A DNA stretch of 64,000 nucleotides from contig OU342637.1 of NCBI GenBank assembly GCA_910589415.1, positions 42,686,162 to 42,750,161 of the forward strand, given 5' to 3'. Positions 3,863 through 26,789 of this stretch are shown piece by piece. This DNA is from Malachius bipustulatus. Taxonomy: Eukaryota > Arthropoda > Insecta > Coleoptera > Melyridae. The translations under genes were made by a program, and so were the position numbers. Numbering within the stretch: position 1 is the first letter of the stretch; each line of letters starts with the position of its first letter. Below the pieces are notes generated by a model. The model was not told where the DNA came from. It saw only the letters and a program-made list of their open reading frames with translations, and did not search any database.

Positions 3863-4792
3863 CCCAAACAGCACAAAGTAGTCCCATGGACGTCCAATGG
3901 ACATCCCTCTATGTACCAACGGACGTCCGTTTTTGTCCTATGGACGTCCATGGGACGTCCACTCAGTGTCCATTTGTCACAACTTTGGACATCCGCAGGA
4001 TGTCCGTTACCGGACGTCCATAGGATGTCCGTTATCGGACGTCCATAGGGAGTCCGTTATCGGATGTCCATAGAGAGTCCGTTATCGGATGTCCACAAAG
4101 CATTTGCTGATAAATATCTTAGTGAGGAACAAAAGACAGAAAATATTCGATAAGTCTTGAAATTTAGAGTTTTGAAAAATCCAATAAATGTAGTGATAGG
4201 TATAGGGTATAGGTATACGGTAATTTTCTGTTTTGAAAACAACGTTGATAACGGCTAAAGATACAGGAAAACGACTACCCCAGTAGCACAAACATATTGG
4301 TTAAATATTATCACCACATATTGGCCCTTGATGCCCCGCGACAGACATTGCCAAGATTGGCAACATATATGAAAACAATATTTATCCTATATGACGTTAC
4401 AAAATTGGCCCAACATTGGAATGTTATATTGGTGAAATATTTTTTAACCATGCTCGAACGATATACGTATTAAATATATCACCAACATGTACCTGTTATA
4501 TTGATCAAATATTGATTATACTTATAAACTTCAAATGCTTTTACAATATAAATATGTCAATAATATGATCAATAATTGTGAATATTAGTAACATGATCTA
4601 TTCGACAATGCTGTAATAAATAATAATAAGTAATTTACCAGATTATATGGGAATAATGACTGCATTTAAAGGTATGAAAATACTCTGTTAGTCAAAACTT
4701 TTAATATTTATTTCTAGTCAAGCTTGTAGAAAAACTCTGTATTAATTTAAAAAATAATCAAATTCTTATACTATTTTTTTAAACTCGAAGTA

Positions 4793-5650
4793 TACAGCGT
4801 GTTCAGTTAAGGGTACGGAGCGGCCATATCTCAGTAACTATTGGTCCTAAAGCCTCAAATAAAAAATTTTCTATACATAAGTGACCATGAGAAATTCAAG
4901 GAAAATATTTTCAAGATGGCCGCACTTCCGGAAATACCGGAAGTTGATATCTAGTTCGTTATTTCAACGGGAACACCCTGTAAAATATTATATTTTTTAA
5001 ATGTCTGAAGAAATCGCATACAGGTGGTTTTCACTATTGGAATTTAGATTGAGCGGTTTATGAGTTATAAACAAGTGAAAATCGCAATGTTTCAACTTCA
5101 AAGCAGTGTAGAACTAGAACGGCTCAAGATGTCTAAAAACGGTGTGCATGTCCCTATCCTAACTTTTCACATTGTATCCTACTATGCGGTTTAAATTTCA
5201 ATACAGGGTGATGAAAAATCGGATAATTTTCATCACCCTGTATTAAAATTTACTCTACATAGTGGGATAAAATATGGAAAGTTAGGATAGGGACATGTAA
5301 ACCGTTTTAAGACATCTTGAGACGTTCTAGTTCTACACTGCTTTGAAGTTGAAACATTGCGATTTTCACTTGTTTATAACTCATAAACCACTAAATCTAA
5401 ATTCCAATGGTGAAAACTACCTGTATTCGATTTCTTCAGACATTTAAAAAATATAATATTTTACAGGGTGTTCCTGTTAAAATAACGAACGAGGTGTCAA
5501 CTTCCGGTATTTCCGGAAGTGCGGCCATCTTGAAAATATTTTCCTTGAATTTCTCATGGTCACTTATGTCTGAAAAATTTTAATTTGAGGCTCTAGGACC
5601 AATAGTTACTGAGATATGGCCGCTCCGTACCCTTAACTGAACACGCTGTA
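4793..5650. mobile_element. Palindromic foldback element FB-2
   Basis: This is a near-perfect 858-bp inverted repeat, TACAGCGTGTTCAGTTAAGG outward-in on both sides, centred near 5222. It is flanked by TA at 4791-4792 and 5651-5652. Internal TACAGGGTG steps and the GAGTTATAAACAAGTG block (5062) match FB-1. It has no ORF and lies inside E2. If transcribed, it would form a long hairpin. Confidence 0.88.
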
Positions 5651-6211
5651 TAATGTTAGTTAGGTAAACTAAAAATAAAAATTAATATGGAAGATAATGA
5701 GATGATGGCAAACAAATTATAAAATTTCAAAATCAATAAAACACTGATTTTCACATTATAGATCGCTAAATTCTAAAACCCTACATAACATAATCAAAAT
5801 AGCTACGAACAAGCATGTATAAAATGATAAAATGGTATAAATCTTAACAAGATAGATAATTTAAATTATTGTCAGTATTGTCACTATTAGGCATGGCATA
5901 TTAGTCCTCTGCATTTCTTCCTCCGCATCCACTCAGGTAGGTACACAGCATTTCATCCTAGAACAATTAATATAACGTAAGAGAGTAACTGAAAATTAAT
6001 TAAAATAACTTCTCTTACCAAAGAATTAAATTTACATCTTGGTCAGTTAAAATTTCCTGTTCTATGTGTTGGTGTTCAACAACTGTAGATGAACTCAAGA
6101 TCATTCAGCTATTTTTTATTTACAAAGCTCACTTAGTGTGCCTGCGCTTACCAATTTTTTTTTTTATATTTGAAAAACTGCAAAAAAAATTAATTGTTAG
6201 AAACACCAAGT

Positions 6212-8891
6212 TGCAGCGTGCCTTGCACGCTACGTTTTCTTTTTCAAAATTTTGATTCTCGATTTAGAATATTTTTATAAAGTTCAGAAGAGTTATGATT
6301 GACTGTACATTTTTGCTGGTGTAAGAGGCTGTATTAGGCAAAGATCACGAACGAACATCTGGCAGCTATTAAGAAATTCCTGCTTTTGTTATTTAAGTAA
6401 GACGTAGAAAACATGTCTGGTCGATTTTCTGTCCCGGTTCTAGGTTTTCAGAGTTTGAAAAATATATCATCTTATGCGAATTAATTTTCCGCGTCTAACG
6501 AGACCACTCTCATCTTGCTACTCTAGATTTCCGATTAGTTATCCAGATAAAACCTAAAATATTATTTCTTTGGGTGTGGGTTAAAAAACAGGAAGAGATA
6601 GTTGAGAAGACCCATAAAGAAACATATAAAAAAACTTGCATTTCGTTCTGAGACACGACAGGCCTCGAGTATATGCGGATTCACGATTGTGAAATTTAAG
6701 TTTGGATAGAGGGAGAACGGAAGAGGTTGGTCGTACTGCCGAAAGTGTACCAAAGTATATCGATCCGACAACGTCGCGTGCGAGTTTTAAGTGTTGCCTA
6801 CCGTCAATGATAAGATTTGAATTTGAAAGTAGGTCACCAAGTTCGGTTAGACAGTGGTTAGGGCGCATGCGATAGCGTCATCCCAAAAAATTATAAATGG
6901 AGGTAAAGGACGCTTCAGGTTCATTTTCCGGTCTAAATTCGACAGTTCATGTAGTTTGTCTTCAATTAGTGAATTAATATTAGTCCCTTGTGTAAGCACA
7001 CAATAGATATGGTGAAGTTATTTCTGTGAAAGATGCAGTCTTACGTAAGTAATCTTCTGAATTTAATTTTGGTCATTATAACTAATATTCGCTTTCTTGT
7101 CTTTACAGACAAGGGACTTACTAAGGGACTTACTTAGGGACTTACTTATTATTGGATTTAGTTTTAAACTTATTTTGGAGTTTCAAGTTCTAGAATGTTA
7201 GGTCCCGACTTCCAGTTTTGATTTTTAACTACTAATTTCCGATTTCCAGTTTTTGATTTCGATCTTTGAATTTCTAAGTTTTAACTTTTGATTCCTGAAT
7301 TTTAATTTCGAACTTCTAGTTCTGAGTTTTGAGTTCCAATTTTCAAACTTCTGATTTACACGAAAGTTTACATAAAGATTCGATCATGTGGAGGCTTATG
7401 TAGGTACCTACCTAGGTAGGTACACTAGCCTATGTGAAAGGTGATATTTGAAGAAGCTTGGAAAAATAAAGAAGAGTGGTGGAGTTTAGTTTGTAGACAT
7501 GGAAGGTTTCATCAGGCAGAGGTCCTAGCACTTTGATATTTGGTCTTCACAAGGTAGCAGGGAGAGCAGTCCAGCTCATCCGGCACCTAGAGCACCAACC
7601 AAGGTGTGCTAACACCAGCACAAAGGCAGTTCCAGTAACCATGCCGGCCTATGCTTTGATCATCGCGCTTAGGTTAGAGGAACCTTAGTTCGTCAGTTTT
7701 GAGATGGAGTTTTGAATAATAAGGTATGTCTTTATGAGTGAATAAACTTTTGCTATTTTCCGATAATCAAGAAAATTAAATAAATTCAAGTACAGTGTTT
7801 AATTGATTTCATCACCTATGACTTTCTAAGTGAATTTGATTTTTGATAATATGTTATGAACTTTTATTGTGGTCAACAAGTGACTAATGTAATGGTTATG
7901 TGTAAAAATAATTTATTAAATTTATCGTATGTGTTTAGGATTTCGAGTTGGAGATGATCATTTTCTAAATTAAATTTTGAATTTCAGATTTTGTAGGTAG
8001 ATACCTGTTTTTATATTGAAACTTTTGCTTAAGATAAATTTAAATTTTTGAGAAATAACTTCTGATTTAACTCGGAGTTCTATTCAGAATCATACCTATG
8101 TGTTATAGTTTAGAAATTGTTTAATAGAATTTGAACTTTAGAAATTTTTATCTGAACTATTGAAATGATATAGGTACCTGTTTTGAATTTTAGTCATGTA
8201 AGTTTGATATCTTTGGTAATAAGGTAGTATTTATGTTTGAAGGTTTGAATCAGGATTACTGATTTTGATTATTAGATTTATTGTTTAGGTATAAGATCTA
8301 TTGGTGATTACCAGCCTAGTCTATTGTACTGATGAAATTGATTTTAATAAATCTTTGTATTAAAATTCAACAATTTTAGAGTATTAAGAATCAACCCTCC
8401 TCATGTTCTTTTAAATTATTTATTCAATCAGTAGAGTAACATCAAGAATAAGGCGATATATCCTGGTATATTTTGGTGAGGTTTATTAATTTTTGGTTAT
8501 TGTTTTTAAAATTGTTAGGAGTTACTACGGGTCCAGTCTGGTTCGGTGAATGCTGGATTTTCCAGAGGAAGGCCACATTTATCTGTCCCGGGCTGGATAA
8601 TCACAACGAACCTTTTGGTGAAGTTTGGTTTTGGTTTGATACTTTGGAAATTTTAGACGATCACTTTTCAAAATTTAAAATTTATTTTTCTTCCGACATT
8701 TAGAATATTTGGGTGGGGCATTCGAAATTTGATATGTCCTACTCGACAGGCCAATGTGGCTAATGTTACAAATTTGCCTAGTCACATTGAGATCTGTCAA
8801 TAGCCACCTCCTTTTTGGGGTTAAGGTAAGTGAATTATTTTTTATTAATCAACTTTTTGAGTGGGAGTAAGCGAGGGGGAGGAAGGCTCCA
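6212..8891 (+). repeat. 5' LTR of the LARD-like element
   Basis: This is a 2680-bp direct repeat starting TGCAGCGTGCCTTGCACGC and ending GGAAGGCTCCA. It contains a triple GGGACTTACTTA repeat near 7110 and TAGGTACCTACC runs near 7410. A 76-codon open frame at 8473 lacks an ATG and any known domain, so I do not call it. The DNA directly downstream (AGCGGTGCGTGACC) does not look like a normal TGG-starting primer-binding site. Confidence 0.9.
6891..6897 (+). promoter_or_regulatory. Candidate TATA box of the 5' LTR
   Basis: TATAAAT lies about 680 bp into the LTR. A CGCTTCAGGTTCATT stretch sits roughly 25-30 bp downstream and could serve as an initiator. The same block occurs in the 3' LTR near 13998. 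This is inferred from motif and spacing only. Confidence 0.4.
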
Positions 8892-9441
8892 AGCGGTGCG
8901 TGACCAGGATAAATCAATCTCCTTATTCTTTTTTCGAAAACTTTCTCAAACTTTGAGAAGAATTAATGAACATGAGGTGTTGGTGTTTTAATAATTTTTG
9001 AGAGAAAAACTTTTTCAAAATTTAGACAAGTAAAGACAAATACCTTTCTTAGTTGCGTAGAGTTTACAGATGGACTAAAACCAAAAGGTAAGGTTTGAAA
9101 TTTTCAACGAAGGACTTCGAGGGAATTCAGACCTGTGGTATTTGAGTCCGTGTTGTTTTCTTTTTGACGTTTCAGCTTTTTAGGTTCCAGCCAAGACGGT
9201 GTGGTAAACCTGAAGATGTGGTTTTCGAGTTCGATAATTTTTTAATTTTTCAGCTTAGGTGGAGTTACAGATAGAATCAGCAACAATCTGATTTTTGAAT
9301 TTTGGGTTTTGGATAATTCTGTTAGGTCAGGTCAAGTCAACTAAGAAAAGAAACGGGATTTTCGTTTTCTTTGTTTCAGGTGGAGTTGGTTGAAAAGTCT
9401 TGTTTGAGAATTTTAAGGTAAAAATTCTTTTGAGATAAATA

Positions 9442-9705
9442 GTGAAAATGGATTTTATTGAGGAAAATACTACAGTCGGTTTTGAGGTCGTTGATCTCAA
9501 GGTAGATGAGATTAAGTATGAAATTTTATTAAGAGGAGAAGTTCCACATTGGAACGGAAATTATAGGCGGACCCAATTAAGTCAACTTTTGAGAATAAAT
9601 GGAGGAGTCACTGTGACTATCTCTCCTTTCGATTTTAATGAGGGTTCTTTTGCGTCTTTTTCCGCCCTGCACCGTCTAAAGCGAAAACTGACAGTCCTTT
9701 TTTAG
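9442..9705 (+). pseudogene. Truncated Gypsy gag N-terminus
   Basis: This is an 87-codon open frame. Residues 13-55 (VEVVDLK-type start, KYEILLRGE, then an R-rich QLSQLLRINGG segment) resemble the N-terminal motif of many insect Gypsy Gag proteins, which is a short helix pair of the form YEL.IRG followed by RK..L..LL. No capsid core or zinc knuckle follows. The frame runs into a repeated GC-richer segment (CCGCCCTGCACCGTCTAAAG) that recurs twice more in the interior, so the last 25 or so codons are not original coding sequence. It is a remnant of the autonomous parent, and this call rests on motif resemblance alone. Confidence 0.45.
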
Positions 9706-9895
9706 GACAATATAATGAGCTTATCCTTTAACAACAATCTTGGATAATGCTTCTTTGGTTTAGAGGGTTCTTTTTCGTCCTTTTCCGCCCTGCACCGTCT
9801 AAAGCGAAAACTGACAGTCCTTTTTTTTAGAGCAATATAATGAGCTTATTCTTTTTTGGTTTTTGGAGATTATACGGGTGTGTATCGTGTGACCT

Positions 9896-10303
9896 GTGAA
9901 TGGTAGTTTTTATAAGGATGTTGATTATAGTTCTTTTGACCCAGTTGATTTTTCCAATCGACTTAAATGGCAGTCCGAAGTGAGCAAAGTTCCTAAACTT
10001 TATCCCCAAATTCAGGAGAAAATTAGAAAATCTTTTGAGAAAAATGTTAAGAGGTATAACCTTCGTAGGCGAGAAGTTAATTATCAAGAAGGTGATAAAG
10101 TGTGGAAGAAAAACTTCGTTCTTTCCAAAGCGGTTGATAAGTTTTCTAAGAAATTAGCTCCGAAGTATGTCCCGGCTATGATAAAGAAAATTAAAGGTAC
10201 TGGTAAGGTTGTTGTTCTTTCAGATCTGTCAGGAAAAATCCTGGGAGATTTTCACGTAAGTGATATTAAACCATTTGTTGAGATCCAGAATAGCCAGTGT
10301 TAG
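9896..10303 (+). pseudogene. Gypsy integrase C-terminal domain remnant
   Basis: A 135-codon open frame reads through a Gypsy-type integrase tail. Around residues 47-85 it has RYNLRRREVNYQEGDKVW, the usual 'YN..RR...GD.VW' entry to the C-terminal beta-barrel. It then has KLAPKYVPAMIKKIKGTGKV, equivalent to the 'KL.PK..GP..I' GPY/F module, and ends HVSDIKPF, the typical close of this domain. The catalytic DDE core and everything upstream in pol are missing. There is no dedicated start; the ATG at 9896 is simply the first in frame. It identifies the parent as a Gypsy-group LTR element. Confidence 0.72.
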
Positions 10304-11261
10304 TGTAGAGCGCGCTTTAGGGGTGACCTAGTTGTGTTGTATTCAAGTTGGCGCCCCTAGTGTAAAGCTCCGTTCACACGCAAAGGCGAAATACATCCTA
10401 TTTGTTTTTAGTTTGAGAATTTAGAAAGAATTCGTTTAGTGTGTCAATAGTAAGTTTTTCAGTAAATTTAGTTACGGTTTTGGAGAAAAAGTAAAGGTTG
10501 TTTAGAGTCAGGAGTCTTTGTAGAGGTTGAGTCGAGTTTAGAGAAAATCCTTTTATAGGTACTTAGGTTAAAATAATTTGAGACTGATAACGTTAGCGTA
10601 CAAATTAAATAAATTTAGCTAACCTACCAGTAATTGTTGTTGAGGTAGAGGTTGAGTTACACTTTAGTCATGGCCAGACTAATTTGTAAAATATTTTTAA
10701 ACGGTCGCGTTAGAGCCCCATGCAAATAAGTGAGCTACGTGACTAGGCGTTGGGTTGAGTTGATTTAGGTGAGTTCTTAATTGAAAATTTCGAGTTCTGT
10801 TAGAGTTGATAATTGGCATAATCTAAATATAAATCTGAGCTGTTATCATCCTAACAGTAACTTTCAGGAACGATCCGTTGAGTAGAGTTGAGAATTGAGG
10901 TAGTTATAAAACTTTTAGGTTGAGATCTTGAATAAAAAAAAGCTCCTGATGATAAAAATCTTTTCCATTCCTTTGATTAAGGTTAAGTCGAGTCAGTATT
11001 TTTAGCTAGAGTTTGAGATTCAATAAGTACAGTTAGTTTAGATTTAAGAATTCTTTCAGTTGACACATTATCTCGAATATCTTTGATGGTGTTTAATTTT
11101 GGCGGAACAACATTAACCGGGTGGTTAATGAGTTATGATTGGGAATTAACTATACAGATTTTGACAAGGAATTTTGAGTTTTAGAAGTGTCTTCATTTGT
11201 AAGAACTTTTCAAGTTTGCTCTTTTGAGAACATTTGAGTAGTGTGACAGTTAAAAGTAAAG

Positions 11262-11625
11262 ATCTTTCTTTTTGAAAATCTTTATTCTTTAATAATTGAG
11301 ATAGAGTTCGTTGGTAAGTAAAACCACATATAGGTCCAACGTTTGAGATTTGATTTTCTTTTCGAAAAATTTTTATTCTTTAATAATTGAAATAGAGTTC
11401 GTTGGTAAGTAAAACCACATATAGGTCCAACGGTTGAGATTTGATTTTCTTTTTGAAAATTTTATTCTTTAAGATAGAGTTCATTGGTAAGTAAAACCAC
11501 TTCATAGGTCCAACGGTTGAGATTTGATTTTCTTTTTGAAAATTTTATTCTTTAAGATAGAGTTCATTGGTAAGTAAAACCACTTCATAGGTCCAATGAT
11601 TGAGATTTGGTTTCTCGTTTGAAAA
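11262..11625. repeat. Tandem repeat, ~80-90 bp unit x 4
   Basis: Four consecutive units contain a GATAGAGTTCRTTGGTAAGT block, then AAAACCAC, TATAGGTCCAAYG and TTGAGATTTGATTTTCTTTT. Units 1-2 carry CACATATAGG and units 3-4 carry CACTTCATAGG, so the array grew by pairwise duplication. Confidence 0.85.
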
Positions 11626-12369
11626 TTTTCTTTAGACAATGACAACATCTTTGGGGTTATTTTTGGTACTTTCCACCCTGGTGTTACCTAAAGAGAAAGT
11701 ATCCAGCCATTTTTGAAAATAGGTCCAGTGGCTGATTTCTTGTATATATTTCTATGTGCTTCTTTCTTTTTTCTTTTTCACTGTTTACAGTATACATCTA
11801 AGTTCGCTTTTGATCTTTTATCTCTTCTTTCGGGTCCTTTTTCGTCCTTTTCCGCCCTGCACCGTCTAAAGTGAAAACTGACAGTCCTTTTAGGACAATA
11901 TAGTATGTTTACCCTTTGATGACAATTTTGGATTGGGAAATTATTTCCAATTTCTTTTAAGTAAAGTAGGGACTTTACTCCCTATATTTTGACGTCGAGT
12001 TCCACCTTGATCAACATAATAGTATAATTCTGAAGGTCTAACACATTTGTGTAAGTTTTAGAGTAATAATTTGGATTTGAGATAGTTTTGAGTCTTTGAG
12101 TTTAGGTGTCTGGGTAAGTCTCGACGGGTTCTTGAGTAAGAATGGCCGCACAGTTCCAGTACCACTTTGAGTCATTCAGTAGAGAAATTTAGTGACGTAG
12201 GTCTCAGTAGAGGGAAATCTTGGAAAATTAAATCTGTCTTACTACTGATTCTTAGCGTTCGCGTTAATGAATTTTGAGAAATAAAATCCGAGTTGGAGTT
12301 TCAGAATTTCATCTATTCTTGTGCTTTTGATAACCACTTGACTGAATCTTGTTGAATAATTTGGACGTT

Positions 12370-12560
12370 TTTTGGAAAACAATTTTGACATTTTTGAGTA
12401 TAGATCATTTAGATATCCCGATTTTGACATTTTTGAGTATAGATAATTTTAGATATCCCGATTTTGACATTTTTTGAGTATGAATATCTTCGATATTTCG
12501 GTTTTGATATTTTGAGGTATGAATAATTTTGATTTGGAAGTGTCCAGATCAAAATACTTT
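12370..12560. repeat. Tandem repeat, ~52-bp unit x ~4
   Basis: The unit runs TTTTGACATTTTTGAGTATA, then GATAATTTAGATATCCCGA. It is repeated about four times, and the last copies are diverged (TTTGATATTTTGAGGTATG). Confidence 0.8.
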
Positions 12561-13307
12561 GAGTATGAACAATTTTAACATTTAACCCGATTTAGACGTC
12601 TTGGAGTTTGAGATGTAGGTAGAACTCTTAGGTTTGAAATTTTGTTAGGCTTTTCTAAGTAAGAGGTTAGTTTTGATTCTTTTGGATAATATTTTTAATT
12701 TTATTTTATGGATGAGTATGGTGGTGGAGGTTATTGGTTCTGGTATAGTCTGTTCAACCAGAGGTTAGGGAAAATATTTAGCTTTCTTTTGAAAAATCTT
12801 TAGTTACAAGGTAGTGTACTAGAGGGGTGCATTATGTCATTTCCAGCCTTATAAATGGAAAGGGCCTGCCGTTTAGTCAGTTGTGGAGCCCCGACTGATG
12901 AAGTAGGAGGTATAGTCACGTGACATGCCAACCACAGGGGCCAATTATTTGAGCTTCGCTACATAGGCAAATATTGCCACCATAAGAGTTTTGTCCTTTT
13001 GAGTCCCTTTGTGTTCTCATAAGACTCAACTTATTTTGATAAGTTATGTGTAGAGCGGAGTTAGTTTCCGAATAACGGCAGTCAGGTTTTCCTTTTGGGA
13101 GCCTGTTTAACCTAGTTTTAGTAACCAGAGTCCTACTGGCGGTTTCCGAGGTCAGGGCTCGCCCATATTGCTTTGTGTTTGAAACATGGAGTGTTTAAAA
13201 CTTGTTCTTTCTGTCTTTTCTTTCGGTTTGTTGGGATTTGTTGATTGTTGATTCGAGAGGAGTTCTCTCGGAAAAGTTTCTTGTGGAGACTTTTCCTTCC
13301 TTTTTAC

Positions 13308-13318
13308 AAGGGGGGGTG
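13308..13318 (+). promoter_or_regulatory. Polypurine tract of the LARD-like element
   Basis: A purine run (AAGGGGGGGTG) directly abuts the 3' LTR start at 13319. This is the expected position for plus-strand priming. Confidence 0.7.
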
Positions 13319-16002
13319 TGCAGCGTGCCTTGCACGCTACGTTTTCTTTTTCAAAATTTTGATTCTCGATTTAGAATATTTTTATAAAGTTCAGAAGAGT
13401 TATGATTGACTGTACATTTTTGCTGGTGTAAGAGGCTGTATTAGGCAAAGATCACGAACGAACATCTGGCAGCTATTAAGAAATTCCTGCTTTTGTTATT
13501 TAAGTAAGACGTAGAAAACATGTCTGGTCGATTTTCTGTCCCGGTTCTAGGTTTTCAGAGTTTGAAAAATATATCATCTTATGCGAATTAATTTTCCGCG
13601 TCTAACGAGACCACTCTCATCTTGCTACTCTAGATTTCCGATTAGTTATCCAGATAAAACCTAAAATATTATTTCTTTGGGTGTGGGTTAAAAAACAGGA
13701 AGAGATAGTTGAGAAGACCCATAAAGAAACATATAAAAAAACTTGCATTTCGTTCTGAGACACGACAGGCCTCGAGTATATGCGGATTCACGATTGTGAA
13801 ATTTAAGTTTGGATAGAGGGAGAACGGAAGAGGTTGGTCGTACTGCCGAAAGTGTACCAAAGTATATCGATCCGACAACGTCGCGTGCGAGTTTTAAGTG
13901 TTGCCTACCGTCAATGATAAGATTTGAATTTGAAAGTAGGTCACCAAGTTCGGTTAGACAGTGGTTAGGGCGCATGCGATAGCGTCATCCCAAAAAATTA
14001 TAAATGGAGGTAAAGGACGCTTCAGGTTCATTTTCCGGTCTAAATTCGACAGTTCATGTAGTTTGTCTTCAATTAGTGAATTAATATTAGTCCCTTGTGT
14101 AAGCACACAATAGATATGGTGAAGTTATTTCTGTGAAAGATGCAGTCTTACGTAATTAAGTAATCTTCTGAATTTAATTTTGGTCATTATAACTAATATT
14201 CGCTTTCTTGTCTTTACAGACAAGGGACTTACTAAGGGACTTACTTAGGGACTTACTTATTATTGGATTTAGTTTTAAACTTATTTTGGAGTTTCAAGTT
14301 CTAGAATGTTAGGTCCCGACTTCCAGTTTTGATTTTTAACTACTAATTTCCGATTTCCAGTTTTTGATTTCGATCTTTGAATTTCTAAGTTTTAACTTTT
14401 GATTCCTGAATTTTAATTTCGAACTTCTAGTTCTGAGTTTTGAGTTCCAATTTTCAAACTTCTGATTTACACGAAAGTTTACATAAAGATTCGATCATGT
14501 GGAGGCTTATGTAGGTACCTACCTAGGTAGGTACACTAGCCTATGTGAAAGGTGATATTTGAAGAAGCTTGGAAAAATAAAGAAGAGTGGTGGAGTTTAG
14601 TTTGTAGACATGGAAGGTTTCATCAGGCAGAGGTCCTAGCACTTTGATATTTGGTCTTCACAAGGTAGCAGGGAGAGCAGTCCAGCTCATCCGGCACCTA
14701 GAGCACCAACCAAGGTGTGCTAACACCAGCACAAAGGCAGTTCCAGTAACCATGCCGGCCTATGCTTTGATCATCGCGCTTAGGTTAGAGGAACCTTAGT
14801 TCGTCAGTTTTGAGATGGAGTTTTGAATAATAAGGTATGTCTTTATGAGTGAATAAACTTTTGCTATTTTCCGATAATCAAGAAAATTAAATAAATTCAA
14901 GTACAGTGTTTAATTGATTTCATCACCTATGACTTTCTAAGTGAATTTGATTTTTGATAATATGTTATGAACTTTTATTGTGGTCAACAAGTGACTAATG
15001 TAATGGTTATGTGTAAAAATAATTTATTAAATTTATCGTATGTGTTTAGGATTTCGAGTTGGAGATGATCATTTTCTAAATTAAATTTTGAATTTCAGAT
15101 TTTGTAGGTAGATACCTGTTTTTATATTGAAACTTTTGCTTAAGATAAATTTAAATTTTTGAGAAATAACTTCTGATTTAACTCGGAGTTCTATTCAGAA
15201 TCATACCTATGTGTTATAGTTTAGAAATTGTTTAATAGAATTTGAACTTTAGAAATTTTTATCTGAACTATTGAAATGATATAGGTACCTGTTTTGAATT
15301 TTAGTCATGTAAGTTTGATATCTTTGGTAATAAGGTAGTATTTATGTTTGAAGGTTTGAATCAGGATTACTGATTTTGATTATTAGATTTATTGTTTAGG
15401 TATAAGATCTATTGGTGATTACCAGCCTAGTCTATTGTACTGATGAAATTGATTTTAATAAATCTTTGTATTAAAATTCAACAATTTTAGAGTATTAAGA
15501 ATCAACCCTCCTCATGTTCTTTTAAATTATTTATTCAATCAGTAGAGTAACATCAAGAATAAGGCGATATATCCTGGTATATTTTGGTGAGGTTTATTAA
15601 TTTTTGGTTATTGTTTTTAAAATTGTTAGGAGTTACTACGGGTCCAGTCTGGTTCGGTGAATGCTGGATTTTCCAGAGGAAGGCCACATTTATCTGTCCC
15701 GGGCTGGATAATCACAACGAACCTTTTGGTGAAGTTTGGTTTTGGTTTGATACTTTGGAAATTTTAGACGATCACTTTTCAAAATTTAAAATTTATTTTT
15801 CTTCCGACATTTAGAATATGTGGGTGGGGCATTCGAAATTTGATATGTCCTACTCGACAGGCCAATGTGGCTAATGTTACAAATTTGCCTAGTCACATTG
15901 AGATCTGTCAATAGCCACCTCCTTTTTGGGGTTAAGGTAAGTGAATTATTTTTTATTAATCAACTTTTTGAGTGGGAGTAAGCGAGGGGGAGGAAGGCTC
16001 CA
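13319..16002 (+). repeat. 3' LTR of the LARD-like element
   Basis: This 2684-bp repeat is almost identical to 6212-8891 and differs mainly by an inserted ATTA-type 4-mer near 14153. It is followed at once by the AAGT target duplication. Confidence 0.9.
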
Positions 16003-16006
16003 AAGT

Positions 16007-16963
16007 TTATGTATATTTTATGTTAGATTATACCTAGTTGCTAAAGTACCGGGATACCTATTCGACCACGAGTGTTTTTGCAATTATTTAATAGCGACAT
16101 GATCAAAATTTTGCAAGAAATGTTACCTCCCCAGACAGATGTTGAGTCTCAAAGCGATTCAAAAAACCTGTCTTCTCCACTTTTCCAATTCAATATTAAC
16201 TCACATGATATAATAACACATAGAACATTTTGAGGATTTGATATACCTATATACATTTAATTGAATCACTTTGATATAAAATAAATATTGGCTCAATATG
16301 GGGCCAATAAAATGACCTGTTTAGAGTTTAGGTAAAATTTATCTTAATTTGAAATTACGCCCGTGTTAAATAATCATAAAAACGGGAAAATAACAACTGT
16401 AATTAGGCTTCTAGACTTCTAGTAATAATAATTGAAAATTTTACGTTCTACAACCACCAAAAAAATTATTTATTATTTGCCTTTGGCTCACACGTTGTTA
16501 GGTGAATAAAGTACAACAATGTTATCAGCACTATAGCAAAATCGACACTAATAATTATATTAAATATGTACTTACTTACAGTTCTTCTTGACTTGTAGTC
16601 ATCAGTAGTTGTTTTGTTTCTTATTCTTATGTATAAATGATTAATTTATACTTAGTACACACGAACGCACGGAGCACGCGGTACAACTGCGTGTAATACA
16701 TAACCTATTTTGTTTAGACAATACAGATATAGGTAGTCAATGTACAGCCAATATGGAAGATATAATGGAAATGCGGATGGACTATTTTGCACCCGTACAC
16801 ATTTTTTTTACAATAAATATAATGTAAGCTTAACTATGAGTATATCGTGAATTTTGAAGAAGAAAAACTTTGTGGTACTAAAAAGATATCTATTCATAAC
16901 TTATATTTAGCCAATAAATCACCTATATTGATAAATATGTAGCGCGTATGCAATATGAGTCCA
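16007..16963. other. E2-derived DNA without genes
   Basis: AT-rich, with no ORF of note. Isolated E2-type motifs (GGCTCAATATGGGGCC at 16288, GCCAATATGG at 16748) support its belonging to E2 rather than to the LTR element or E3. Confidence 0.45.
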
Positions 16964-16965
16964 AT

Positions 16966-18894
16966 CCCAAGTAGCATCAGAGGGTACAACCACCTTCTCA
17001 TTTTATACCGGAACTTTGAGAAAGTGACTATCACTTATTTTCCACTCAATTTAAAACTTTACAGTAGAAAAAACTATATATCCTATATTCATAGTGGTAA
17101 TCACGGTGCATTCATACCAGCGTGGCCACTTGATAGTTTCATAACATCTTGGTGCTACTTTAGGTGCTCAAAACGTTATTTTTCCTCCTAATAACCACTT
17201 GAAAGTTCTACAACTATGAAGTGGAAAGTGAAAGCTGCAGTCACCAACAAAGAGCACTAAAATATCACTTAAAAGTGGCGAAAGCTTTGAAGTGATATAT
17301 TAAGTGGCCGCATCGTTCTCAAAACTTCTGTAATATCTTTGAAGATTCATCACACTCTAGTGGCATGCAGCACCGATCGTCACAATTCTGCCACCAAGAA
17401 AAGTAACTTTGATAATTTGAATAAAATTTGAGCCACCAAAATGTGGCAAGAACTTGCGAAAATAACTTTTAAGAAAAAATAACCTACTGGTGACTGTTTA
17501 GGGTTAGAATCAGACTAAGTAGGGTTAGGTAGGTATATTGTATAAAAGTGTCAGCGTTGATTTTAAAATCCTTTTCAACATTATTATAATAATGGATAAT
17601 AAAATCTCAGGCAAGAAAAGGAGTTTTCGACATTCAACAACGTTTTATAGAAAATAAAAACAACAGTTGGAAAAAACATCGGTTAAAATGGTGGTCTTGT
17701 AAACAAACCACGATCACCTAAACAATTTCAACCATCATGTAGGTAGTACTTCGACCATTCATTTCGTTTATTTAAGTAGAACACGGAGAACCTAAACTTA
17801 CCTATACCTACGTCAATTCTTTTCATTCATTTTTCAAGTTCCATTATTATCAACGACAGTAATTATTATTGTAGGTAGGTACTATTGCAAATAAATATAG
17901 TGACAGAATGGTTTAAATAACTGTTCGAAATCACTTTCATGTGACGAAGAAATCGATTGGCTTGTTCTTTAGTTCATATAGTTCCCTTGGCCACTTGTTA
18001 TTCGAAAGCCACCTAGAAGTGAAATATTTTCAGTTTTGCCACTACGGTTTGAGTGATGAACCCTTTATAGTCGTAAAATGTGACAAACGCCACTTTTAAG
18101 TTATATTCTCCTAAGGCGGCCATATTTACGGATAAACCTCTTGCCGCCATTACCGCAAAGATTATGTAAACGATCTGATAAATAGTAAATGTTGATCAAT
18201 ATGGCACAGAATTAAAAAAAAAATTGCTTTTGCGTTTCTTGTAAGTAATATTTATCGATAAAAAATAACTTCTTGCCGCAGACAGCTTATCACACACTAA
18301 CCGTACGTGAAATTACGTTTCAAGTTTTTTTTTTTAATGTCGTTTTTATGGCGGCGCTTAGTAATATTTCGATTTATTACATAAATGTTTCACAATAAAG
18401 TTGCGTTCGTTTGTAATTTGTTGGGCGAGTGCAGACGCACGCTCCTCCTTAATAATTTTTGTATACCTATGTAGATTCAAGGATGAGTTGAGTTCTTCAT
18501 TTTCCATGCCGTCCCGATCTTGTTTTGTTTAGCAAGACTAGGTAGAAATACGATAGGAATAAGGAAGGTAAAAATATGACATTGCGGCTGTAAGACAGAG
18601 ATCGAAAACCCAACAACAACTAGTATGTGCGCGGACTGTGCGAAGATGCAAGGGATAGAGCCCGCCACCATACATCCAGGGTGTGGCCACGTGACCGTGA
18701 TGTGGCCAAACCGTGGCACGGTCAGATCTAATCACGTCGCCGGAACTAGATAACCACTTAAAAATTGTTCCCCATTTTAGTGGTAACCACGTAATAGAAC
18801 CGTTGCTTTCATGTGGCCACCACTCGTGGCGGGAACTTTTAATGTATCTTCTGCAGTGGCCCTCACGTTGTCTCCACTAAAAATGCTACTTGGG
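16966..18894. mobile_element. TIR element E3 with AAGTGG/GTGGCCAC motifs, nested in E2
   Basis: The ends are CCCAAGTAGCAT on both sides, flanked by AT at 16964-16965 and 18895-18896. Both arms are studded with CCACTT/AAGTGG and GTGGCCAC-type palindromes (17115-17420 and 18000-18100, 18650-18880). Open frames around 18477-18735 are shadows of this motif field. No transposase is visible in 1.93 kb. Confidence 0.78.
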
Positions 18895-19671
18895 ATATAT
18901 ATCAAATATAACCAAAATACATACTAATTTAAATCTGCCGTTCATATATTGGGCCATCATGTGAGACATATTACCAAACCAATATTGTGCGCTAGTTCTG
19001 ATCCAGTATAACGCCAATATTGGCTAGATAATCCACATATTGGGCCTAATTAAGATATGCTGCCCATATCGATCCAATATTGGGACAATGTAATGTGCTG
19101 CAGGGGTAGGTACTTACCTACTTATGTGTTTCTATCATTAAGTTTTACGTAAAATCTGGTAATTTTCATTGAAAAGTTGTTAATTATATTAGTTTATCAT
19201 AATATTGATAAACTTAATGAAAATATTCGTTTTTGGATTTTTCACAAACTCTAAAAATTAAAGATTCATCGAATTTCTTTCTTTTGTTCACTGTATAATG
19301 CAGATGTCTCTCATCTTCACGCTAGCAGTCTTGAGTTTGATGGGAATGGCGGAAGTCTTTCCTTGGGACGAATTAATGTATAATGTAGGAATGTGGATTG
19401 TATGATAGTGGAAGAATGGAAGATGGGGTGGTTAGCGCGTGCGTGCGCACTTGTGCTGCTATTCTCTTCCTGTCTGCGACAGCACGTCATGCGCAATAGT
19501 CAAAAATAACTCGATGGACGTCCAATGGACGTACTTTTGTGGACGTACATAGGAAGTCCGTGCGGAGAAGTCCGTAGGACGTCCATTTATTGTCCATGGA
19601 CCAATGGACGTATAATGGATACTCAACGGACGTCCATAGGACACTCGGTGCTATCTGGGTACATATAAGCG

Positions 19672-20145
19672 CACACTTACAAAATATATGAATAAAATAA
19701 ACTAAACTAAACCAAACAAAAACTAAAACTAAAATACAAGTATAAATAAATAAATAAAAAATCCTAAAACTATTGTGTGAGGTGGTGGGATTCCATGAAC
19801 ATTTAATAATAATTAGAAACATGAACAATAATTATTATCCAAAATATCAAAACAAACTTAAAATATAACCTTGCTTTTTGTTCTTTACGTCTTTCTTTAC
19901 CTATTCTTTACATTTTTTACGTATTGTTTACGTATCTTTATATTGTTTACGTCGAATGTAGAGAATGAACTATTTACGCATAAAGGCACATGGCACATGG
20001 CCAGTGATGTGCCGTATTCTTTACCTCTATTCCTTACGCGATTCTTTACGGGTAAAGAATTCATTCTTTCATGGATTTTTTTCGGGGTAAAGAATGTAAA
20101 AAAAGCAAAAACGTAAAGAATGTAAATAATGCTCAGTGTCACTGT
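19672..20145. repeat. Right part of the split TTCTTTACG-family repeat
   Basis: This continues the repeat begun at 3690. It has an A-rich CAAAACAAACTTAAAATAT segment, then clustered TTCTTTACG/CGTAAAGAA motifs and a GTAAAGGCACATGGCACATG block. The same order occurs uninterrupted at 30010-30370. Short ORFs here are motif shadows on both strands. Confidence 0.6.
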
Positions 20146-20404
20146 CATTACTGTCAGTAGTTATTGTCATTACTCATTTTAGTTTATTATATTAATTATG
20201 TATGAGAGCCTGGCGTGGCCTCGCGGTTAAGTAGCGGAAACTGCTTGATCGTTGGATCCGTCGGACTGAGTTCGATTCTCGGTGAAGGCTCTGGGTGTCT
20301 GTGTTGTTTCTACTATTTATTTGGCATACTTGAGGCTGGGTGTATGAGCAAGAGGCTCCAAACTACGAAGGCGTGGAAGGGCCATGTAAAGTTTTATTTT
20401 TATA

Positions 20405-20606
20405 ATAGACACTTGCTCTGTCTACTAGACAGATGATCTGTCTATTAGACAGATGATCTGTCTACGAGACATATTATCTGTCTACTAGACAGATGATCTG
20501 TCTATTAGACAGTTTATCTGTCTACGAGACAAATCATCTGTCTAAGAGACACATCATGTGTCTAGTAGACAGATCATCTGTCTAGTAGACACATATCATT
20601 TGTCGA
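20405..20606. repeat. Palindromic minisatellite, left array
   Basis: About nine ~20-bp units are of the form CTGTCTACTAGACAGATGAT. Every unit contains the self-complementary core GTCTACTAGAC or GTCTATTAGAC. The array is mirrored at 21985-22150. Confidence 0.85.
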
Positions 20607-20779
20607 CTAGAAAGCTATTGTAGCTGTAATCATACATTTAATACAACAAGACTAGGTCGAGTAGAAAAATTGGTGTGCTACAAAGGATTTTACACCGAAG
20701 AACTTTGATAACAAACAACAATTCAACAAACTTCTTCCTTCATTTTATTTCTATTGATTATCATTTAAAAAAAAGATTA

Positions 20780-21190
20780 ACAGCCAATATTATAAAGGGT
20801 CATTAGACTAACGGGCAGATTTCTGTGCTCGTTTTTGAAGGTAATATTGACATCAAATTACTTTTATTGACAATTGTTCAATTTAGGATAGGGATGTAAT
20901 CTTTTTGTATACTTTGTACTTTGTAATTAATGATGCTTTTAACTGCAACCTCTGTGACATTGTTACATCCAAATACAAAAGTCTGTGACTAATTGGGTTT
21001 CATTAAACCCCGAGGTCATATCACCACCACCACCACCACCACCACCACCATACTTTTATTGACGTTTTTGTAATTACTTTCGTGTCAAGAATAGATAAAT
21101 TTTAAAAAATTCCACTTAGACTCGATACCTTCTTCAGAAATGGCCACAGAAATCTGCCCGTTAACTTAATGGGCCTTTATAATACCCACT
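20780..21190. mobile_element. MITE copy A (ACAG...TATTATAAAGG ends)
   Basis: The left end AACAGCCAATATTATAAAGG and an AACGGGCAGATTTCTGTG segment are found inverted at 21145-21190. A second copy lies at 22563-22795. A (CAC)n run at 21023-21050 is inside this copy. Confidence 0.75.
21023..21050 (+). repeat. (CAC)n microsatellite
   Basis: About nine consecutive CAC triplets, located inside MITE copy A and absent from copy B. Confidence 0.9.
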
Positions 21191-21984
21191 GTATATGAAA
21201 TCTTTTATTTTCACATAAGTACGCAAAATAATAGAGTCGATATAAAATCCTTTTTGCTCGTCCAATTTTTTCGCTTTACCATTTATGGCTCAAAATTTTG
21301 TGTATATGCTGTAATTGAGGCTGTAGTCAAGTGCATACTATAATTAGATCTTTTTTAGCACATAAAATTGTAATTTGATATAAAAGTAAAGTATTTCTTA
21401 GTATTACGTAGGTACGTCACCTTAGCTCAGTTAGGTATAGATAAATATGTGGAATAAAAAATGTTCTATTATTTAATATTTATTATAATAAATCATATAA
21501 CTTTTATATACTTTATAACTTTATAAATTGCTTCAGCGGGTATTAGGTAATTGTAAATACGTTTTGGTTCCGTATACTTCTGGCAAGTAGAACATATCAA
21601 ATGCGGCCTTCCGGTAAGGGGAAATGCTATTCCTTGACCGTGAAATGTGGTAAATGTCCCATTCTAAAGCAAGTGTGTCCAATTCTTCCTAAAAACATTA
21701 TCTTTTACAAGTTTATTATAGTCTTGTTAAGTCTTATTACGAAAGTATAGCAAAATTTATTTTTAAAAATTAATCGGAATCGGCTTTTAAATCTCTTGAC
21801 TTATGAATATTGAATCTCTCGATTTCTGAAAAAAGAATGAAGTTTACTACTACCTTTATTATTATATTTTTTTTTTATACAATGTTAGTTTTAATTCTTG
21901 GGTGGCCTGAAGCCAGGTCACCCAAATTATCCGAACTAATTTGAATTTCAAAATAATTAAGAATTTTAAAAAACACTAATAGAC

Positions 21985-22150
21985 AGATAATGTATCTAAT
22001 AGACACTTGTTGTGTCTAGTAGACAGATGATGTGTCTACTAGACAGATGATCTGTCTAATAGACACTTGTTGTGTCTAGTAGACAATTGATGTGTCTACT
22101 AGACAGATGATCTGTCTAATAGACACATGATGTGTCTAGTAGACAGAGCA
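21985..22150. repeat. Palindromic minisatellite, right array
   Basis: Units such as AGACACTTGTTGTGTCTAGT and AGACAGATGATCTGTCTAAT are repeated about eight times. This is the inverted counterpart of the left array of the same TIR element. Confidence 0.85.
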
Positions 22151-22294
22151 ATAAGTGTCTATTATAAAAATAAAACTTTACATGGCCCTTCCACGCCTTC
22201 GTACCAAACCCATATTACCGGTGTGGAGCGACTTTGTCTTACCTACATAGGGAAGACCGATTCTCCCCCTTTTTTTTTAATTAATTATGTATGA

Positions 22295-22560: not shown

Positions 22561-22562
22561 AG

Positions 22563-22795: not shown

Positions 22796-22799
22796 TTTA

Positions 22800-23505: not shown

Positions 23506-23507
23506 GT

Positions 23508-24583
23508 CCCAGGCAGCAAGGAATGTTCACTGAATGTTCCCTAAATGTTCACCGAACATTAAACATTGCTCTAATGTTAAACAGACTTTCCGAATATTCA
23601 GGCAACGTTCAGATTCTAATGTTCGTTTTCAGACCTTGAATAAACATTCATTGAACATTAGATACTGAACATTCAAAATGCAATGTTTAATTAACATTCA
23701 TACAATGTTTAAGATGAAATGTTTATTGCACGCAATTACATACAGGTACACTGACATCAGGTAAATAACATATACCAAAAAAAATTGGAAAATTACATGC
23801 TGAAACGAAAATATTTGGCTTAAAAATTGATAAAAACCAGAATTATATTTATTAGGTATAATTATTACAACGAGGTGTTGCGCGCGCAGCTCTCTTGTCT
23901 ATTGCATGCATCATGCATTCCCAGTATTCTCTTGCTTGTGTATATGTCCGCTATTCTTGGCATGTCATCTTCATCTTGTTTTTCTAAACTATGAATATAC
24001 CTATGTATAGGTATAAAAGTCACAATAAATTATCAGCAAGCTAAGTATTTTATGCTTGTCCTGGTCGGAGAGAGAAGGTGCAGAGAGTGATGCAAACTAA
24101 TCTAATTCTTCATCACAGGTATTATATAGGTAGGTAGGTATTATGATGTAGACAGGAACAAGAAAAACAACACGGAAGAGCAAATGTGACCTTATAATAA
24201 TAATAATAATTTATATTGTTCACTGATGGATTGATAAATGGAATACACCTACATAGTAAGTATTATTTTTTTCAGCTTTTCAGCTCCATATAGGTAATAC
24301 AATTCTTAGTGATGATCAGTTTGATAAAAAAAACAAACATTCACTCAACATTTAAAACTAATATTCATTGAATGTTTACGAATCTGTCGTTTTTCACATT
24401 GGCTGAATGTTCATTTTTGAATGTTCAGTAAACATTCATTTATAAATGTTCACTAAAGCTTAAATCTGAACATTCACTGAACATTTAAAACTAACCTTCA
24501 TTGAATGTTCACGAATCTGTCGTTTCTAACATTGGCTGAATGTTCATTTTTAACATTCAGTGAATGTTCGATTGCTGCCTGGG
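23508..24583. mobile_element. TIR element E4 with GAATGTTCA/TGAACATTC arrays
   Basis: The ends are CCCAGGCAGCAA on both sides, with GT at 23506-23507 and 24584-24585. Dense arrays of GAATGTTCA, TGAACATT and AACATTCA motifs occupy the outer ~250 bp of each arm (23521-23720 and 24335-24570). The middle has an (AAT)n run near 24195 and no ORF. The length is 1076 bp. Confidence 0.85.
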
Positions 24584-24596
24584 GTGTGATAAACTA

Positions 24597-26789
24597 CCCA
24601 AGCAGCATTTTAGGTTAAATTTACGTCGATTCGACGTAATTTAGGTATACTAATCTAATTCACCTAACCTAAATTACGTAAAATTTACCTCGAATTTACG
24701 TCACGAAGACCAAAGTGAGAGTAGATATTACGTAAATTCGTCGACATATTTGGAAATTATTACTATGAAGTTAAGTCAATATTGCTATAATACTTAGTTA
24801 AAATAGGTAATATAAACCTCGCGAGTGAGAGAGAGGCCAATAGCCGAATAGCCATGGCTTAGTGCACTAAGCAACAAGAAGCCGTGAATTTTAAATAGTT
24901 TATCTCTTTTCAAGTCTTTCTATCGGATTCTGTTCCGTCTGATGCGCTCTGAATTCTGAACACGCTGTTGGCGCGCAAGTCTATTATTTCTAGTCGTCAC
25001 CGTCAGTCAGTCATCTACTCACACAGCATAAAATGAAGAAGGGAGGTTCTCAAATAATATGGATACGGATGTTGATTGTTTCTGTTTGGAAATAACGTGT
25101 GCAGGTAGGTACGTGATGCCAAGTGCCAATTTACATGCCAGTGAAATTTTCCGAGGAAACTTATGATTATAGGTGGTAAATAACAAGCGCGCCTCGTGAA
25201 TTAGGCAGTTTAAAGCTTTTTTTTTCAAAAGAAAGAACAAAAAAAAAAAAAAAATTTCAGATTTGGAAGGTAGGTTTTATGTCATTATTTTGCAGTAATA
25301 TTGTGTTTTTGTATTTCACTTCTTGGAACGTTATACTTCATTAATTGTAACAGCAAAAACTATTGATTAATATTAGGATATAAACATGGAGTCCTTCGAA
25401 TAGGTAGGTTAGGGCGGATTTTACGTCTGAAGTTAGCGCAAAGAACTAGCACCGATAGTACTGTCTACTGTTTATTCCAGTGCACTGTTGCCAGACAGTA
25501 AAAATTAATTTCGCATTTAAAGATATGGGCGAGGAATAAAAAAAAATTCTATAATATCTCCGTCCCTGGACATTTACGCACCGCTGTTTGTCGGAGGTAC
25601 ATCTAAAACAAAGACTAATTTGTAATAATTCGAGGTTCATTGCCAATTAAATGCATGAAACTTGTTTTAAAATCCCACTGAACTGCTTGTAGAATTTCGT
25701 GGCAACCGTGTACGGGAATATGCTCTATCGACCTCTCGGCACTAGCTCTCGGAGCTATGTTCAGGCTCGTTGGTCAGGTGTTGCTTGTGTACCTGCTGGA
25801 CTGTGGAGTGCATTGTTGACAATTGACATGTTGTGATTATGGTTATTATTTGTACCTTATCTTATACCTATATGCTATAAATAAAAATTACTTGAACCAG
25901 CTTCAATTTAGAGGAGTACCTGTATTATTTTAAATTAGGTATGTCGGTAGGTACCTATCAGGTTTACAAACGAATGTAATAATTTGATATAAAATTACTT
26001 ATTAACATTAACCAATTAATGGGATTCCACATAAGGGGGAAACAAACAAAAAAATCTTCCTTCACGGGCCGGAAAGGGTCCACCTACTCCACATCAAAGT
26101 GAGGTTACGTTACATACACATACATACGGAAGGGGAGGAAAATAAAATTGCACTAGGTAGGTACTTCTTCTTTTGGATTTAAAAATTTATACTGGCCTTT
26201 ATTAGTTCAGTACATCAAGCTAAATTACCAAACTTTTCATTGAATGTAGGTACTTGGAATTTAATTACGATTTACTTGTCATTAATTTCTTTTTGTTGCT
26301 AGTTGAAAAACTTGAAGTAAAATTACGTAAAATTTATGTTTATTTCACCCAGAATCATTTGACTTGAATGATACACTTACTTTGAAGTAAGATTTTTGTG
26401 AATAATGACTTAATTGGTCTATGTCCATTAATATGGATAACTGTAAATGAAAAATTTTCCCATTTGTGGCCTTCAAAGTCATTTTTACTTTCAAGGCGAA
26501 TATAGGGAAATTAATTACCAACCCTAATTTACTTATTATCGACTGTATGGTTAATATAACTTTGAAGTCAGAAATTGGTAAACAATTTGGTCAAATATCA
26601 AATAGTCTTATGTAATACCCTATATTCACCCTGTTGGTAAACTTTACCATAAGGTATTTTTATTAGTCAAATTACCTATTATTTCCTACAACATTTACTT
26701 ATAAGTTAAATGTCTTCAAAGTAAAAAACTGACTAAAATAGGACAGAATTTCCTAATCTTCGCAGAAACGACCAATTTTGCTGCTTGGG
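24597..26789. mobile_element. TIR element E5 with TTACGTAA/AATTTACG motifs
   Basis: The ends are CCCAAGCAGCAT and, reversed, CCCAAGCAGCAA, flanked by TA at 24595-24596 and 26790-26791. It lies only 11 bp from E4. The left arm has repeated AATTTACGTC, TTACGTAAA and ATTACGTAAATT motifs. The right arm has AAATTTACTT, TTACTTATAAG and AATTACGTAAAATTT. The arms are less symmetrical than in E4, so the element may be partly replaced internally. Short ORFs at 25019 and 25446 on the - strand look random. Confidence 0.7.

Follow-up and report, generated by a model that had tools for sequence, protein, structure and literature searches.

Nested and neighbouring elements share one terminus

The window, a 64,000-nucleotide stretch of Malachius bipustulatus contig OU342637.1, was found to contain five elements, E1-E5, in part nested (E3 within E2 within E1):

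3863..19659, strand not given: E1, ends CCCAAACAGCAC / CCCAGATAGCAC, duplication TA; outermost layer of the nest
3888..4095: left array of E1, GGACGTCC-type palindromes, 12 sites at one mismatch or fewer
19516..19635: right array of E1, GGACGTCC-type palindromes, 6 sites at one mismatch or fewer
4278..19106: E2, ends CCCCAGTAGCAC / CCCCTGCAGCAC, duplication TA; word CCAATATTGG; inside E1
16966..18894: E3, ends CCCAAGTAGCAT, duplication AT; word GTGGCCAC/AAGTGG; inside E2
23508..24583: E4, ends CCCAGGCAGCAA, duplication GT; word GAAYRTTC
24597..26789: E5, ends CCCAAGCAGCAT / CCCAAGCAGCAA, duplication TA; 13 bp from E4

All ten ends (10/10) start with CCC in an inverted repeat and all five elements (5/5) are flanked by 2-bp repeats (TA, TA, AT, GT, TA), showing that E1-E5 are inserted elements with target duplications. 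An earlier sequence-only reading had given the same flanks and the same coordinates for E2-E5, but its right end of E1, 19669, was 10 bp off. Two copies of E1 (L004 and L018) stop at the same bases as E1, and both carry the empty site of E2 with a single TA. E2 itself contains one LTR element in addition to E3. We also found copies of E3 (L012, L015, L020, L030) and E4 (L007, L017) and a relative of E5 (L009). Alignments of the E1, E3, E4 and E5 copies reach the terminal base and then stop, so for these four the ends do not lie outside the CCC 12-mer. As had also been reported, no transposase frame was seen in the copies of E1-E5 in the window.

Exact matches to CCCMNNNAGCA numbered 11 in the window, where 10 first-order simulations led us to expect 1.8; all but one of these matches are ends of E1-E5. 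Genome-wide, the 12-mer produced 3,202 matches against 336 in the reversed control. Inverted pairs with 2-bp duplications, anticipated elsewhere in the assembly, were indeed present: 33 of 36 distinct paired copies carried a duplication. Nine different dinucleotides were represented; TA was the commonest, yet it made up 8/33 among distinct copies. Fetched single ends L034, L036, L037, L043, L047, L052, L053, L054 and L060 showed coding sequence or other repeats and were judged by eye not to be elements of the CCC type. Phage records searched with the E1 left end gave no match.

The terminus is of the animal TRC type

The superfamily of the terminus is animal TRC-type CACTA/EnSpm. In the portion of the source available, animal TRC elements of the CACTA superfamily, including SmTRC1, are described as having a CCC start, a 2-bp target duplication and a Transposase_21-type protein, and the Tribolium TRC terminus CCCTAGTAGCACC is nearly identical to the terminus found here (DeMarco 2006, PMC1636069). 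Unlike here, that portion describes no family-private palindromic subterminal arrays, register or DUF4806 gene (PMC1636069). Spongebob / EnSpm-4N1_HM, which the accessible text assigns to TRC/CACTA, has CCC ends (CCCAGCCAACATTGAC) and a 2-bp duplication in common with E1-E5; it is presented there as a single family and, unlike here, with no motif array (PMC4298943). Because their CCC terminus and 2-bp duplication are as in TRC elements, we regard E1-E5 as probable non-autonomous members of several TRC-type families. This supports the earlier view of non-autonomous families of one superfamily with a conserved terminus, and that superfamily can now be named.

Another superfamily with 2-bp duplications (ISL2EU, Tc1/mariner) would share the length of the duplication and, in part, its commonest form, TA, but we consider this extremely improbable given the nine dinucleotides and the tnp2-like transposase encoded by the full element described below. 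ISL2EU (PHIS), which has GG ends and duplicates AT in A|AT|T targets, was ruled out by the CCC ends and the range of dinucleotides. Tc1/mariner in general duplicates TA and was ruled out by the small share of TA. PiggyBac, which targets TTAA and duplicates 4 bp, was ruled out by the 2-bp flanks of the window elements and of the paired copies.

The full element of the F3 family measures 6,834 bp, with one length in the four copies examined. Within its CCC ends lie a 694-aa frame for a tnp2-like transposase and a second gene, of the DUF4806 type; GGACGTCC sites are found at both of its ends. The transposase frame was recovered using TRC protein L062 (E about 2e-24); PF02992 matched it weakly (E 0.0019, under the cut-off). 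TRC transposases are marked by an [LVI]-D-x-[LM]-H-x3-L-G motif plus CxxC. The frame has DPMHLLYLG and CFKC, the residue preceding D being A, not L/V/I. F3 is a deletion derivative of this element, matching it over 294 bp at 88% and over 475 bp at 83%. Judged by word and terminus, E1 probably belongs with the full element as well. F1 copies retain a piece resembling the TRC transposase N-terminus, for which a protein search gave no match at E 0.001 and a search of viral contigs confirmed no relatives. The predicted structure of the DUF4806 homologue P0085, a weak model good for about residues 1-80 only, had no PDB match at E 0.001, and no DNA-binding fold was found in it for the second protein.

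Subterminal words differ between families

We then counted the words inside the ends. GGACGTCC has 9 exact sites in E1, CCAATATTGG has 2 exact sites in E2 (5 within one mismatch) and GTGGCCAC has 3 exact sites in E3, each with 0 in the rest of the window. For GAATGTTC there are 9 sites in E4 (0.03 expected) and 2 elsewhere in the window. The TTACGTAA array of E5 is concentrated at the left end and is weak, since its 3 sites (0.3 expected) stand against 9 elsewhere in the window; automatic word choice for E5 gave CTTCGAAG, not TTACGTAA. The array of E3 is moderate. In plain counts of palindromic 6- and 8-mers, a clear excess over shuffles was observed in E1 alone (8-mers); the enrichment concerns particular words, not palindromes generally.

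The sequence-only reading had proposed a private palindromic array for each element. Words do differ between families, and most families have theirs at both ends, but E1 and F3 have GGACGTCC in common, F8 has an AT-rich word alone and the commonest word of F1 is non-palindromic (the palindrome TGTCGACA recurs too). A palindromic motif finder yielded nothing usable for E3 or F8, and its word for F1 was diffuse.

Most of the different words share one register

Across differing words, site centres were found near 17.5, 28.5 and 39.5 bp from the terminus. A site centred at 28/29 (two mismatches or fewer) is present in 16 of 21 ends. Over ten words, 44 of 150 adjacent spacings are 11 bp, compared with 8.2 expected, a count inflated by tandem units in the E1 and E4 arrays. 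Spacings of 13/14 bp (24 versus 13.2 expected, maximum 25 of 300) were not clearly above chance. Hold-out ends gave p 0.013 by sites and 0.11 by ends, at one mismatch, which is modest support for the register. It is not followed by E3 or, at its right end, by E5. One shared register from the terminus under different words is what is new here, and the sequence-only reading had missed it.

Left out of the final register count were F3, represented by full element A, F1 and F8, which had no usable palindromic word, and H51 (L051), for which the automatic choice yielded no word. For H35 and H39 the scoring word was GATATATC earlier and AGATATCT (automatic choice) in the hold-out and final counts, and E5 was scored with TTACGTAA despite the automatic choice. 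By eye, H51 has AACGTA centred at 28; F1 has one TGTCGACA site, at 39.

The register bears on what the arrays are. Sites for host factors such as bZIP proteins, captured by each family separately, would suit the ACGT core in 5/10 words and the F5 word TGACGTCA, which we take to be the CRE site of bZIP proteins. We consider this very unlikely, as it gives no account of one register and 11-bp steps over words as unlike as CAAGCTTG, CCAATATTGG and GGACGTCC. Slippage or satellite-like growth, leaving functionless by-products, could explain the tandem units of E1 and E4 that inflate the spacing counts, and an unrelated element at 20364-22203 also has a palindromic array, with a 20-bp period; but slippage does not put words of unrelated sequence at one shared distance from the terminus, and most families carry their word at each end. 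This account is likewise highly improbable.

The VANDAL elements of Arabidopsis belong to the MULE superfamily. Their dense, family-specific short motifs, which the dense words found here resemble, evolve with the element protein VANC and have an anti-silencing role in the part of the source at hand; they lie in one orientation within non-coding DNA, and both this and the role differ from our reading (PMC5735166). Arrays serving such an anti-silencing or regulatory protein, for expression and not end synapsis, are an unlikely explanation. VANC motifs accumulate by tandem repeat formation, and the E1 array includes a 25-bp tandem unit; however, the strong E1 and E4 arrays lie within 250 bp of the terminus at either end, and sites kept in a set register relative to the cleavage position are what end recognition would predict, not an antagonist of silencing spread over non-coding DNA.

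A second protein may read the words

Plant CACTA elements are already known to combine a conserved terminus with subterminal words that have diverged. Soybean Tgm and maize En/Spm, in the available part of the source, have a conserved 13-bp terminus and subterminal repeats that differ by family; the repeats are recognised by TNPA, a protein separate from the catalytic transposase, and divergence of both repeats and TNPA was proposed (PMC2613891). The full F3-family element likewise has a second gene. The sequence-only reading's repeated switching of transposase specificity is not demonstrated here. The plant elements differ in having CACTA ends and a 3-bp duplication (here CCC and 2 bp) and longer motifs of 12-20 bp in direct and inverted order; that part describes two soybean subfamilies, against ten words here (two of them weak), and no shared register, unlike here (PMC2613891).

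We propose that the transposase would cut at the terminus common to the families, while the palindromes inside it would be putative sites at which a DNA-binding protein encoded by the element attaches as a dimer. The likeliest candidate is the DUF4806 protein; the alternative is another transposase domain. This protein would coat both ends in 11-bp steps, uniting transposase and ends. Between families the recognised word would be replaced and the geometry from the cleavage site retained, which would make the families mutually private. TNPA binding to diverged words is a plant precedent for this explanation, and the shared register and 11-bp spacing across ten words support it. We put the probability of TRC-type families with such a binder, the word replaced on a fixed geometry, at roughly 0.78; binding and co-evolution are its inferred parts. 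More tentatively, and less likely than not, one superfamily in one insect genome may have repeatedly replaced its end-binding word with position kept within a base or two. This would give at least eight private systems that have their catalytic terminus in common, the DUF4806 protein being a rewritable reader.

In the literature compared, the division of end recognition among CACTA-type proteins is known from a few plant elements. With a family series of one geometry and many words, one could find out by which protein the word is read, how specificity shifts while function persists and whether privacy shields an element from the non-autonomous copies it has given rise to. The full element, with its four examined copies of equal length, offers an experimental entry point, and the DUF4806 family gains a candidate role.

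Partners of E2-E5

A longer copy with a transposase had been suggested for each cluster; F3, with the word of E1, has one, but no full elements were found for the E2, E3, E4 and E5 families. The PF02992 search gave 4 matches, two above cut-off (L061, L062); both were dropped as partners because the surrounding 9.5 kb contains no CCC end that matches this type exactly. Nor was an exact terminus of this type found 0.5-2.3 kb upstream of the match at 12 further transposase loci, or in the flanks of four more (L083-L086), and the looser CCCNNNYARCA had no match over these loci. Five of the 12 had a one-mismatch terminus string with an unconvincing array; the L100 string CGCAAACAGCAT, following TA, may be a decayed end. 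Strings of the CCC[AT]G[CT]NA type occurred in 7/16 transposase loci, and one of them, CCCAGTCAATTG at L097, resembles the Aedes TRC terminus.

The five elements and their terminus

CCC-ended inverted-repeat elements of the window, with one inserted retroelement
E1: 3863-19659
E2: 4278-19106, inside E1
LTR-type retroelement: about 6200-15900, within E2; its long direct repeats lie 7,107-7,111 bp apart
E3: 16966-18894, inside E2
E4: 23508-24583
E5: 24597-26789, 13 bp from E4

All five elements proposed in the sequence-only reading exist as described, except that the right end of E1 lies at 19659 and not at 19669. Its claims of a common terminus and of 2-bp flanking repeats held: CCC[AC]NNNAGCA fits 10 of 10 ends, and a 2-bp repeat flanks every pair. 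One further exact match was found in the window, unpaired, at 41641 (1.8 expected). The direct repeats of the LTR element were 100% identical in both 300-bp pieces reported. E2 also contains a near-perfect long inverted repeat (4757-5686; arms of 355 bp, 93%, 9 bp between them), and a diverged relative of it lies at 130-992.

The terminus, which had not been placed in a superfamily, is of the animal TRC type (CACTA superfamily), because the SmTRC1 paper describes animal TRC elements with CCC ends and 2-bp duplications (PMC1636069). In the same paper a Tribolium TRC element starts CCCTAGTAGCACC and the duplication is present in 7 of 14 copies. A Hydra EnSpm element is described in another paper as starting CCCAGCCAACA, with 2-bp duplications (PMC4298943). 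ISL2EU was ruled out by its ends and target, as given in PMC4482050.

Genome-wide copies and target duplications

We counted the terminus pattern over the 544-Mb assembly (52 contigs), using the same pattern reversed as control. Two proteins of this genome have beetle sequences as their nearest named relatives, which makes a beetle the probable host. CCCARRYAGCAH gave 3,202 matches (1,607 + 1,595) vs 336 (175 + 161) for the reversed pattern. Families were sampled from the first 100 match places, all of them within 7 Mb of the start of contig C1: 20 stretches, then 20 more, of which 10 were chosen as unpaired ends, then 20 single ends. Alignments of copies of E1 (L004, L018), E3 (L012, L015, L020, L030), E4 (L007, L017) and E5 (L009, which carries an insert) reached the terminal base and then stopped, confirming the CCC terminus as the true end; identity was 81-99% over the main pieces.

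Equal flanking dinucleotides were found at both ends in 16 of the 20 stretches of the first set (exceptions L006, L009, L010 and L012) and in all ten pairs from the first ten stretches of the second; a scripted pair search in the ten chosen as unpaired ends returned none. Counted jointly by family, with L009 and L019 left out as the script assigned them no family, 34 of 37 pairs carried a 2-bp duplication. With L001 and L071 merged as one copy, the count is 33 of 36 distinct copies. The duplications comprise nine dinucleotides, most commonly TA, AT and TT. The E2 insertion site was empty in two E1 copies, with a single TA instead of two. E1-E5 are mobile elements. Copies of F3, a non-autonomous family of about 1.1 kb with the same terminus, abut or sit within other F3 copies (L006, L003); related elements nest repeatedly, as in the E1, E2, E3 series.

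A full element with two genes

The transposase was reached from PF02992 through a TRC protein of the same genome (L062), which was then used as a genome query and gave at least 54 matches. A 694-aa open frame was present at no fewer than five places. Around C1:13039388 it belongs to a full element of 6,834 bp with CCCAAACAGCAC at both ends, TT/TT flanks and GGACGTCC sites just inside each end. In three further copies of the frame (201 bp fetched per end), each end was exactly where this geometry predicts, with CT, TA and TT as duplications. That four copies have one and the same length suggests that the element moved recently.

The transposase matched Transposase_21 weakly (E 0.0019, under the curated cut-off) and carries DPMHLLYLG and CxxC. 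A second gene, on the same strand and 3' of the transposase, has six predicted exons with GT-AG borders. DUF4806 (PF16064) matches the predicted protein over its cut-off, with E 1.6e-7. A search at E 0.001 gave five relatives, of which two, from Phaedon, are full-length.

The sequence-only reading proposed looking for a longer, transposase-bearing copy of each motif cluster; the F3 family has one, the 6,834-bp element, and none with another word was found at the loci examined. F3 aligns to it over 294 bp (88%) at one end and over 475 bp (83%) at the other, and is therefore its deletion derivative. E1 (copy L004) has the same word and terminus as the full element, yet at E 0.001 only the last 33 bp are in common (85%), so E1 is probably a cross-mobilised relative. 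Family F1 gave 23 genome matches, several being fragments of one copy; its retained piece resembled the TRC transposase N-terminus at E 4e-7 (vs L085) and 0.005 (vs L086), values from one sequence against two without composition correction.

TRC transposase frames elsewhere in the genome
L061: C16:8566973, 667 aa
L062: C2:59139539, 857 aa

A 500-aa frame at C2:60678887 is identical to part of L062. Exact CCC ends of the E1-E5 type were sought in 9.5 kb at L061 and L062, and none was found; these frames could be domesticated or could belong to another TRC lineage. At twelve more TRC transposase loci (L089-L100), the 0.5-2.3 kb read upstream of each match contained no exact CCC terminus. Termini of another type, end decay (L100) or longer leader regions could account for this.

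Subterminal words

Words repeated just inside the ends of further families of the same genome (H: hold-out ends)
F2: TTTCGAAA
F3: GGACGTCC
F5: TGACGTCA
F13: AAACGTTT
H35 and H39: AGATATCT
H58: CAAGCTTG

Each of E1-E5 had been credited with a dense private array of short palindromes. E1, E2 and E4 showed strong enrichment, E3 moderate and E5 weak enrichment. F8 has only an AT-rich word (TTTTAAAA, 13 vs 2.25 in shuffles). The commonest word of F1, GACACATT, is non-palindromic; F1 also has TGTCGACA, with 5 sites within one mismatch. When 22 ends of 11 families were compared, similarity at E 0.001 occurred only between ends of one family.

A common register of different words

We measured site centres from the first C of the CCC and found that different words share positions 17/18, 28/29 and 39/40. 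At one mismatch, E1-E5 had 7 of their 32 sites on the register (circular-shift null 1.3, p 0.0006), and the F families had 7 of 29 (null 1.2, p 0.0002). The register was spotted after both groups were examined, so these statistics are not independent of the choice of positions. Position 28/29 alone held 13 sites vs 1.7 (20 ends, two mismatches). E3 was off register, and E5 was on it at the left end only.

Among the hold-outs H35, H39, H51 and H58, the first two already part of that 20-end pool, the sites on register at one mismatch numbered 4 of 20 (null 0.8, p 0.013), and 2 of 4 ends had one (p 0.11). With two mismatches allowed, the counts by site and by end were 5 of 31 (p 0.020) and 3 of 4 (p 0.038). 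H58 was clearest, with centres at 18, 29, 40, 54, 62 and 73. The pooled test covered 21 ends in 12 sets. The sets have ten words between them, since one word is common to E1 and the full element and another to H35 and H39. The top 2-bp bin was 28/29, with a site in 16 of 21 ends (at most two mismatches).

Adjacent sites were 11 bp apart in 44 of 150 cases vs 8.2 expected (maximum 17 in 300 random placements), a count to which tandem duplication within arrays, such as the 25-bp unit of E1, adds spacings that random placement leaves out. The 13/14-bp spacing was not decisive (24 vs 13.2, maximum 25), and those of 24/25 and 35/36 bp (10 and 6) were inside the null range.

Comparison with plant CACTA elements

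PMC2613891 ties the catalytic protein of plant CACTA elements to conserved ends, with TNPA binding subterminal repeats that differ among families; both proteins are required. The present elements likewise combine conserved ends with family-specific subterminal repeats. If the role of TNPA is transferred by analogy, the CCC 12-mer would be the target of the transposase, and the palindromes, spaced by about one turn and phased to the cut, would be bound by a protein dimer. The simplest candidate for that protein is the DUF4806 protein. A constraint on the assembled complex would then preserve phase and step even as one word replaces another.

TRC elements of animals were already known, with CCC ends and a 2-bp duplication, as was subterminal word divergence in plant CACTA. 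Searches of open-access papers did not find different words placed on one register, private arrays of palindromes in TRC elements, or a DUF4806 gene as the second gene of such elements; a beetle paper mentions DUF4806 and transposon once each (PMC13270666). On this weak evidence, all three may be new.

Other repeats of the window

A separate inverted-repeat element at 20364-22203 has 51-bp perfect ends (TACGAAGG...) and a 6-bp duplication, CCAAAC; with its TA..TA ends, the latter resembles IS3EU. It has its own palindromic array, GACAGATGATCTGTC, in 20-bp steps, and subterminal palindrome arrays are therefore not unique to CCC elements. ATTCTTTACG words are repeated in two stretches, 19881-20120 and 30262-30340, perhaps the ends of another repeat family.
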